Assembly (NCBI GenBank): GCA_018607365.1
Contig: JABBBT010000033.1
Span: 1-59,278 of the forward strand
Origin: SAR86 cluster bacterium
GTDB taxonomy: Bacteria > Pseudomonadota > Gammaproteobacteria > Magnimaribacterales > D2472
Reading direction: 5' to 3'
Length of the DNA: 59,278 nucleotides
Positions 26,674 to 28,372 of the stretch are shown piece by piece. The notes below the pieces were generated by a model. The model saw nothing but the letters and a program-made list of their open reading frames with translations, ran no database searches and was not told the DNA's origin. Positions within the stretch are counted from its first letter, which is position 1. Each line of letters starts with the position of its first letter. A program made the position numbers and the translations under genes.

Positions 26674-28083
26674 TTGACAAATAATTTCAATTTAGTTTTT
26701 TACGACACTGAAACGACTGGGATTCAGAAAGACTTTAGTCAAATTCTTCAATGCGGATCTGTTCTAACTAATAGTTCATTAGATACATTAGATGAGCAAA
26801 ATATAGGATGTGCTCCTTTACCCTGGGTTATACCTCAACCTATGGCAATGATTACTAACAAAAAGATAGATCTTTTTAATTCAAATATATCTCATTATCA
26901 AATGATGAAGGATCTTCAACTTCAATGGAAAGAATGGTCTGCACAAAACCCATCAATATTTATAACTTATAACGGGCATGCTTTTGATGAAGAGCTGGTT
27001 AGAAGACAGTTTTTTTGGAACCTATTGGAACCTTATACGACTAATACCAATGGTAATGGCAGACTAGATTTAATGTTAATGATTCATAATATTGCTGCAT
27101 ATTTTTCTGATGAAATATCTATGCCATTATTTGAAGGAGGTCCGGGCATTAGTTATAAGTTAGAGCATTTAGCCATAGAGCATGGTATTGATGCAGGTGA
27201 TGCGCATGATGCAATAGCCGATTGTAATCTTATGATTGAGATGTGCAGAATTATCAAGGAAAGACTACCTGAGGTATTTGAATCCTTTGTGAATATTTCA
27301 ACAAAGCCTGGAATTAAATCTTTGCTTTATTCTGAAGAATTTTTAGCATTGGGTGAAATTCATAGAAGGCATACATTTAAGTACCCAGTGGTTTTATGTG
27401 GTGCTGATGCTAGTAGACCTAATGAAATTGTTTTCTATGATTTAAGTTATGATCCTGAAGACATACTCGATTTAGACTTTACGGAAATAAATAAATTAAT
27501 TCAATCAAAAGGCCGAGACGGACCCCTTAAAAAATACAAAATTAACAAAACAATCCCCGTATGTTCTTCAAAATATCTTAAAAATCCAGATGTTTTTGAT
27601 ATAGAATTTTCTGAATTACAAAGAAGAGCAGATTTAGTTAGATCAGATAAAGATTTCCAACAAAAAGTATCTCAAGCTATGGAAGATAGGATGATGAGTT
27701 TTCCTGAGTCTGAGCATATTGAAGGAACCATATATTCAGGTGGTTTTCCTTCATACAAAGATAAAGATTTAATGCAAGAATTTCATATGTCTAAGGATCT
27801 TAATCATTTAGTAAAAATTTCTAGAAACTTCGAAGATGAAAGATTGAGAATTTTTGCAGAAAGAATAATATGTACTGAATATTCAACGAATATACCTGAT
27901 GATATTAACAATAGGTATCAGGAACTCATAGATGAGAGAAATGGAACAGACGGTTTGTGGGGCTCAATAGACAAATCCCTATTACAAATTGAAAAATTGC
28001 TAGTTGAAAGAGACGATGCTGAGAGTCAAAAAATACTTAGCGCTACTAAGATAAAAATTGAGTCTATGAAAGTAGGTTTATAA
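26674..28083 (+). CDS. sbcB: Exodeoxyribonuclease I
   Basis: 469 residues. The DEDDh exonuclease domain (1-185) shows YDTETTG (ExoI motif), TYNGHAFDEELVRRQFFW, and HDAIADCNLM with the catalytic H and D. The SH3-like and C-terminal helical domains of ExoI follow. It degrades single-stranded DNA 3' to 5' in repair. The only start in reach is TTG at 26674, 8 bases after the ACAD stop; no ATG occurs before the ExoI motif. Confidence 0.9.
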   Translation: MTNNFNLVFYDTETTGIQKDFSQILQCGSVLTNSSLDTLDEQNIGCAPLPWVIPQPMAMITNKKIDLFNSNISHYQMMKDLQLQWKEWSAQNPSIFITYNGHAFDEELVRRQFFWNLLEPYTTNTNGNGRLDLMLMIHNIAAYFSDEISMPLFEGGPGISYKLEHLAIEHGIDAGDAHDAIADCNLMIEMCRIIKERLPEVFESFVNISTKPGIKSLLYSEEFLALGEIHRRHTFKYPVVLCGADASRPNEIVFYDLSYDPEDILDLDFTEINKLIQSKGRDGPLKKYKINKTIPVCSSKYLKNPDVFDIEFSELQRRADLVRSDKDFQQKVSQAMEDRMMSFPESEHIEGTIYSGGFPSYKDKDLMQEFHMSKDLNHLVKISRNFEDERLRIFAERIICTEYSTNIPDDINNRYQELIDERNGTDGLWGSIDKSLLQIEKLLVERDDAESQKILSATKIKIESMKVGL

Positions 28084-28195
28084 AAAAATGGAGGACTAAG
28101 TCCTCCATTTAGACTAGCAAATTCTAATAGGGGGGAGACGTTGCTAGCTGCACGTATTGTATTAATACTTTCATTCTTATCAATACAATTTCCTC
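28082..28195 (-). ncRNA. Candidate small RNA with C-rich loop and rho-independent terminator
   Basis: Read on the minus strand, three hairpins follow each other. ATTGTATT/AATACAAT occupies 28189-28156. TTGCTAG... with CTAGCAA/TTGCTAG at 28147-28114 has a loop containing UCUCCCCCC (28138-28130). The hairpin ATGGAGGA/TCCTCCAT at 28108-28088 runs into seven T (28088-28082). The U-tract lies on the minus-strand side only, so the terminator serves a minus-strand transcript, yet no protein gene lies upstream of it there. The C-rich loop could pair with Shine-Dalgarno sequences. The 5' end and promoter are not resolved. Confidence 0.5.
28088..28108. terminator. Hairpin terminator downstream of sbcB, strong only on the minus strand
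   Basis: A near-perfect inverted repeat of 10 bases centred at 28098. On the minus strand it is followed by seven T. On the plus strand, after sbcB, it is followed only by TTTAG, so it would be a weak terminator for sbcB. Confidence 0.7.
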
Positions 28196-28293: not shown

Positions 28294-28372
28294 AGACCCG
28301 TAGCTCAGTTTTGGTTAGAGCGCCGCATTGACATTGCGGAGGTCGATGGTTCGAGTCCATTCGGGTCTACCA
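28294..28372 (+). tRNA. tRNA-Val (anticodon GAC)
   Basis: 79 nt. Acceptor AGACCCG pairs with CGGGTCT. D stem GCTC/GAGC, anticodon stem CCGCA/TGCGG with loop TTGACAT (anticodon GAC), T arm GATGG-TTCGAGT-CCATT, encoded CCA. Confidence 0.95.

Follow-up and report, generated by a model that had tools for sequence, protein, structure and literature searches.

A predicted small RNA with a C-rich loop, conserved in a SAR86 family, and its candidate targets among membrane protein leaders

Results and Discussion

The gap between sbcB and a tRNA-Val gene in this SAR86 genome probably contains, on the minus strand, a SAR86-specific gene (copy S) for a trans-acting small RNA (sRNA) that would operate independently of Hfq and ProQ by blocking ribosome binding. 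The gene, its promoter, structure, conservation and paralogy, as well as its complementarity to mRNA leaders, can be read from the sequence. The first-pass annotation of the window (the whole stretch of 59,278 nucleotides analysed) had predicted an unannotated minus-strand sRNA at this place, and the prediction is borne out by family-wide conservation, stem covariation, a conserved loop core and promoter and the occurrence of a second locus. The features of the locus, in window coordinates, are the following:

26674..28083, plus strand: sbcB (exonuclease I), convergent neighbour of the sRNA; the name is that of the first-pass annotation
28082..28088, minus strand: T7 tract, intrinsic terminator; T-rich in relatives as well
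28082..28149, minus strand: predicted sRNA of about 68 nt, with predicted ends (distance from the -10 element, covariance models R1 and R2, fold z -6.1)
28086..28110, minus strand: terminator hairpin P2, AAAUGGAGGAC UUA GUCCUCCAUUU (fold and covariation)
28113..28148, minus strand: hairpin P1, GCUAGCAA / UUGCUAGU, closing the C-rich loop (covarying pairs)
28124..28135, minus strand: seed CCCCCCUAUUAG in the P1 loop (conserved core, complementary to target leaders)
28156..28161, minus strand: -10 element TACAAT, after a 16-bp spacer; TATAAT in most relatives
28178..28183, minus strand: -35 element TTGATA of the sRNA promoter, best promoter-like site of the region (10/12)
28294..28372, plus strand: tRNA-Val(GAC), divergent neighbour of the sRNA

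Promoter, terminator and fold

The gap extends from the end of sbcB at 28083 to tRNA-Val at 28294 and, in agreement with the earlier statement that it holds no protein gene on the minus strand, no open reading frame of at least 50 aa is found there on that strand. The position of tRNA-Val(GAC) is kept in 13 of the 14 relatives with an S copy whose loci reach that far. The three consecutive inverted repeats initially described are all present on the minus strand, but the RNA with three hairpins that had been drawn from them was rejected: the outermost repeat contains TTGATA-16-TACAAT, the top promoter match of the region (10/12), is not conserved as a hairpin and, as a repeat, is shared by the window genome with its nearest relative alone. 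Since this repeat is the promoter, the sRNA has two hairpins, and the position of the promoter places it at about 28149 to 28082. Among relatives, the DNA-based alignment evidences a conserved promoter with a spacer of constantly 16 bp.

The middle repeat forms P1 and exposes, as claimed, a C-rich loop, which reads CGUCUCCCCCCUAUUAGAA. In P2, positions 28110-28100 pair with 28096-28086 and the stem runs into the T7 tract (28088-28082), which indeed follows the last hairpin on the minus strand only, as the plus strand reads TTTAGACTAG at this point and not a U-tract. A minus-strand stretch of 122 nt folds with -33.9 kcal/mol (z -4.6), and the refined 68-nt RNA (28149..28082) with -25.3 kcal/mol (z -6.1), a value equalled by 0/200 shuffles. 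The last hairpin is also the only terminator-like site detected between 27000 and 29500; since shuffled sequences average 1.2 such sites, the scan alone is not proof, which is supplied instead by conservation.

Conservation and covariation

A DNA search of 60 relatives recovered the region in 15 genomes besides that of the window, nearly all of the same genus. By DNA the sRNA is present in 16 of the 18 genomes of the genus (61 genomes searched). The covariance search that had been proposed extends this distribution to the whole family: model R1, built from the alignment of the relatives found by DNA, detects the sRNA in 99/107 family genomes (E<=0.01), comprising all 10 genera, and matches the window at 28078-28151 with an E value of 2.6e-14, while model R2, built from 78 sequences, detects it in 96/107 (E<=1e-4). 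Searches with both models beyond this one SAR86 family gave no convincing sRNA match. The best match in the class outside the family (G295, E 8.6e-6) was rejected, being without a C-rich loop; weak matches of about 1e-4 in families f2-f4 were not accepted, and antisense model matches to the terminator palindrome were discarded. In a pattern scan of named genomes the matches were SAR86 cluster records, among them SCGC AAA076-P13 and SAR86B.

In the alignment of relatives the stems vary on both sides, the 3' end is T-rich and the core of the C-rich loop, CCCCCUAUU, is nearly invariant. Both stems, P1 and P2, covary. Across the 78 sequences, 13 of the 19 pairs have changed on both sides (6 of 8 in P1 across the family) and the covariation amounts to 0.212, against 0.110 in shuffled alignments (0/500) and at most 0.062 in slid controls. 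As this alignment was fitted to the model, and hence leans towards structure, the cleaner test is that of the 15 sequences not fitted to the model, where the covariation is 0.214 versus 0.130 shuffled. The Rfam scan of the sRNA returned no family at the gathering threshold, and the matches at E<=10 (sraA, plastid, Listeria) lie under the thresholds of their own families and were rejected. We regard the predicted sRNA as a genuine SAR86 RNA family, hitherto undescribed, whose predicted mode of action is of a known type.

Two gene copies and a shared promoter element

The sRNA gene occurs at two loci. Copy S, beside sbcB, is found in genomes of genus g1, in G018 (g2) and in G019 (g3), whereas copy A is family-wide and present in all genera; the window genome itself has a copy A (G000:C52:20205-20285), of which its copy S is a paralogue. 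The promoter is conserved at both loci. Promoter, loop and stems are retained at the second locus although its gene context differs, which indicates that it is the RNA that is conserved and not the neighbourhood of sbcB. The absence of any gene behind copy S argues for the RNA as the product in its own right.

At copy A the order is sRNA, a hydrophobic open reading frame of 25-33 aa and a glutathione peroxidase gene (PF00255), with a gene resembling rpiA, as judged by eye, on the opposite strand beyond the latter. The small reading frame is found behind copy A in 77 of 78 loci and in most of these the sRNA ends 13-17 nt ahead of its start codon. It represents an unannotated, conserved microprotein (for example MKKYQEIFETVILASFFVISVMAIAPIT; in the window genome at locus L051, just downstream of copy A), and a Pfam search with the sequence from relative G010 gave no match. 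In G015 a third sRNA copy is observed (L126, G015:C10:19910-19988), without an intact microprotein reading frame behind, and it may be either a real copy or assembly contamination.

Alignment of 80 A-type promoters, anchored on TTGAT/TTGCC, yields the consensus TTTTATAAATAnTATTGATAATTAATTATAAATATATATAATAATA, in which TTGAT and the AAT of the -10 element are invariant; its core forms an almost perfect inverted repeat, which overlaps the -35 element. The S promoter of the window has lost most of this repeat and kept the -35 and -10 elements. The repeat bears a likeness to Fur/PerR half sites, although its spacer is of 2 bp, and we do not assign it to either operator.

A close copy of the promoter and inverted repeat, TATTGATATATAATTATAAATATATATAATAA, is also found in the window at 31154-31120 on the minus strand, preceding the minus-strand reading frames 31092-30910, 30917-30762 and 30765-30328, which correspond to two small hydrophobic proteins and a blue copper protein of the plastocyanin/azurin family (PF00127). 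The same arrangement of promoter and cupredoxin is seen in G018 at 448422. This promoter match before the blue copper operon in both genomes places the sRNA probably in a small regulon with the glutathione peroxidase and the cupredoxin, and the shared element suggests, at the level of sequence, a common regulator of the sRNA and the cupredoxin operon.

Predicted targets

Target prediction was carried out on the genes called in G018 and G023, two near-complete relatives of 1.2 Mb each, by computing the duplex energy of the sRNA loop against positions -120 to +30 around each start and comparing 888 reciprocal best pairs. The leaders complementary to the loop CCCCCUAUUAG and conserved between genera are those of the light-driven proton pump proteorhodopsin, TonB-dependent receptors for nutrients and a 72-residue membrane protein. 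In fact, proteorhodopsin (PF01036) ranks first of the 888 pairs (-25.8 and -25.4 kcal/mol in G018 and G023, respectively), followed by a TonB-type receptor, named by sequence and not by family search (-19.7 and -19.9 kcal/mol), and by the 72-aa protein (-18.1 and -19.6 kcal/mol). The real top-1, top-3 or top-5 sums were reached by 0/300 shuffled loops, 150 of them fully shuffled and 150 preserving CCCCC. Also, 5 of the 9 occurrences of TAATAGGGG in G018 fall within leaders, versus 0.57 expected, as do 5 of the 7 occurrences of ATAGGGGG in G023, versus 0.44. The suggestion that the loop could pair with Shine-Dalgarno sequences is thus supported, in that conserved leaders with complementary G-runs exist. 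A third leader candidate in G018 belongs to a protein related to DMSP demethylase, under its cut-off.

The best conserved candidate target is the ribosome-binding site of the 72-residue protein, CUAAUAGGGGGG, which in the window genome would form 12 bp with the seed. The 11-nt seed complement TAATAGGGGGG has two sites only in that genome, namely the opposite strand of the sRNA gene and this leader, and seven further sites in relatives. Directly before the ATG the leader reads CCTAATAGGGGGGAA in most family members and differs in families without the sRNA. Loop UAUUA goes with the leader UAAUAGGGG (g1, g2, g5), UAUG with CAUAGGGG (g7) and UAUA with UAUAGGGG (g3). G023, with UAUG opposite CAUAGGGGG, and G019, with the UAUA of its S loop opposite UAUAGGGGG, are as expected of co-changing partners; loop and leader therefore appear, from these sequences, to change together in two genera. 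When loops and leaders are swapped, the leader of a genome is sometimes better matched by a foreign loop than by its own, and the G-run does much of the pairing. Sister families without the sRNA have G-rich ribosome-binding sites before the 72-aa gene too, e.g. AUGGGGGAGAU, which indicates that part of the G-run is older than the sRNA, the AAUA extension alone being family-specific. The protein itself (L296, L305, G000:C42:17202-17414) is glycine-rich, hydrophobic, frequently encoded in tandem pairs and conserved across SAR86, and has no match in Pfam or NCBIfam.

In the proteorhodopsin leaders of most family members GGGGGAG is located about 45 nt upstream of the start codon. The site is absent from those of families f2-f4 and from those of G019 and G024, several g1 leaders pair over 7 bp only, and the leader of the window genome is interrupted by a contig end. 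Full-length co-folding with the sRNA gave -11.7 kcal/mol for the 72-aa leader and only -4.0 kcal/mol for one proteorhodopsin leader. A short hairpin follows GGGGGAG (L206-L222, L229-L232) and is conserved in the family; together they may belong to a leader switch. Switching by an anti-Shine-Dalgarno element is not claimed, as folding shows it in G018 and not in G023.

From these features we infer transcription of the sRNA, its pairing in the cell, the sign of the regulation and its signal. Minus-strand transcription from a sigma-70 promoter would yield an RNA of about 68 nt ending at its own intrinsic terminator, whose 5' hairpin would expose the C-rich loop for pairing of the seed with G-rich leaders of several mRNAs. 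The seed would cover the ribosome-binding sites of the 72-residue membrane protein and of the TonB-dependent receptors, and would pair with the G-run upstream of proteorhodopsin. The likely outcome would be that these abundant membrane proteins are translated less, neither Hfq nor ProQ being involved.

Comparison with known systems

Hfq, which an Hfq-dependent sRNA requires the genome to encode, was detected in 0/41 genomes of the SAR86 order, of which 22 are at least 90% complete, absence in a single incomplete genome not being proof; likewise ProQ was detected in 0/31, and control genomes were positive in both searches. Among the Hfq-dependent sRNAs of enterobacteria, CyaR and OmrA/B repress outer-membrane receptors. 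The SAR86 sRNA resembles them in its intrinsic terminator, conserved short seed, pairing with ribosome-binding sites and outer-membrane protein targets, as predicted, but differs in that no Hfq or ProQ is detected in its order and in that its seed lies in a closed hairpin loop.

The first-pass annotation had recognised a theme of RsaE/RoxS and of C-rich alphaproteobacterial sRNAs; the working principle is shared, whereas membership of either family is not supported. RoxS/RsaE, FsrA and CsfG are sRNAs of Firmicutes with C-rich regions (PMC8216469), and the likeness consists of a structured short RNA directing an exposed C-rich region to G-rich ribosome-binding regions of several mRNAs, which in SAR86 is found at the level of complementarity, in species in which Hfq does not serve as a general sRNA hub, and with at least two C-rich RNAs per genome. 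Unlike these, the SAR86 sRNA has 68 nt and a single C-rich loop with a seed reaching into UAUUAG, is confined to the gammaproteobacterial SAR86 and has no sequence or Rfam match to the group, the RoxS/RsaE model giving none at the gathering threshold or at E<=10.

The Cuckoo RNAs, CcsR1-4 and SmelA075/A099 of Alphaproteobacteria have CCUCCUCCC loops (PMC3927594, PMC10253847). Both place an anti-Shine-Dalgarno motif in the loop of a hairpin, come in paralogous copies and have a genomic link to a small-protein gene and a stress context, in SAR86 the peroxidase gene. However, the SAR86 loop is CUCCUCUCCCCCUAUU or variants thereof, each locus has one C-rich hairpin and not tandem hairpins (PMC3927594), the small protein at copy A is the hydrophobic peptide of 25-33 aa and not a DUF1127 protein (PMC10253847), and the RNA would have its own promoter instead of being processed from a co-transcript.

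Alternative explanations

As expected of a trans-acting sRNA, the intergenic locus combines a promoter and an intrinsic terminator of its own, a compensatory structure with a conserved unpaired seed, and a conserved leader complementarity above the shuffled control. A conceivable, if unlikely, alternative is that the RNA acts mainly in cis, as leader or attenuator of the microprotein-peroxidase operon, copy S being a by-product or a decoy that titrates leader-binding factors. Indeed, copy A sits immediately before these two genes, its terminator lies in a place compatible with attenuation, and pairing of the C-rich loop with the GGAGGG terminator arm is conceivable in principle. However, copy S retains promoter, loop, stems and terminator across three genera with no reading frame behind it, the trans targets are conserved, and the terminator arm differs between copies with an unchanging loop (GGAGGAC/GGAGAGC/GGAGGGC), so that the two do not coevolve within the sRNA.

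We give very little credence to a mere sbcB terminator or bidirectional transcription boundary with hairpins formed by chance: the last hairpin does begin 3 nt past the sbcB stop codon, between two plus-strand units, but the T-tract belongs to the minus strand and the plus has none, loop and upstream promoter are conserved beyond the needs of a terminator, and the same RNA with the same promoter at an unrelated second locus contradicts it. Just as improbable is a cis-antisense RNA regulating sbcB through its 3' end, which the predicted sRNA touches at the stop codon, given that the overlap is of about 2 nt and most family members are located away from sbcB. Least probable of all is a decoy titrating a protein, of the CsrB/RsmZ type with GGA in loops on either strand. 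The opposite strand does have AGGGGGGAGA in a loop; however, promoter and T-tract are both on the C-rich strand, which is the one predicted to be transcribed, and CsrA gave 0 matches in 19 genomes of the sRNA-bearing family, being found within the SAR86 order in families f2 and f3 only, two of the four.

Significance

SAR86 are among the most abundant surface-ocean bacteria and proteorhodopsin was first found in them (PMC11582366). Our literature search, whose scope did not include subscription papers such as the early metatranscriptomic sRNA surveys, found no description of a regulatory RNA in SAR86 and no report of an sRNA for proteorhodopsin. A broader scenario, which we put forward tentatively and hold to be rather doubtful, is that a leader RNA of the microprotein-peroxidase operon was duplicated and became an sRNA that coordinates phototrophy by proteorhodopsin, nutrient uptake by TonB receptors and the small membrane protein, of an abundant type, with a redox-linked regulon of glutathione peroxidase and blue copper protein, by means of a single promoter element common to them, in a streamlined marine lineage that lost Hfq and ProQ. 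As for the trans-acting sRNA itself, if our reading is true it would be a concrete, testable regulator of SAR86, with one short seed and named mRNA leaders, and the first cultured SAR86 isolate, HIMB1674, together with public ocean metatranscriptomes, is the place to seek it. It would also be a case of regulation by base pairing in a lineage of Gammaproteobacteria that has neither Hfq nor ProQ.
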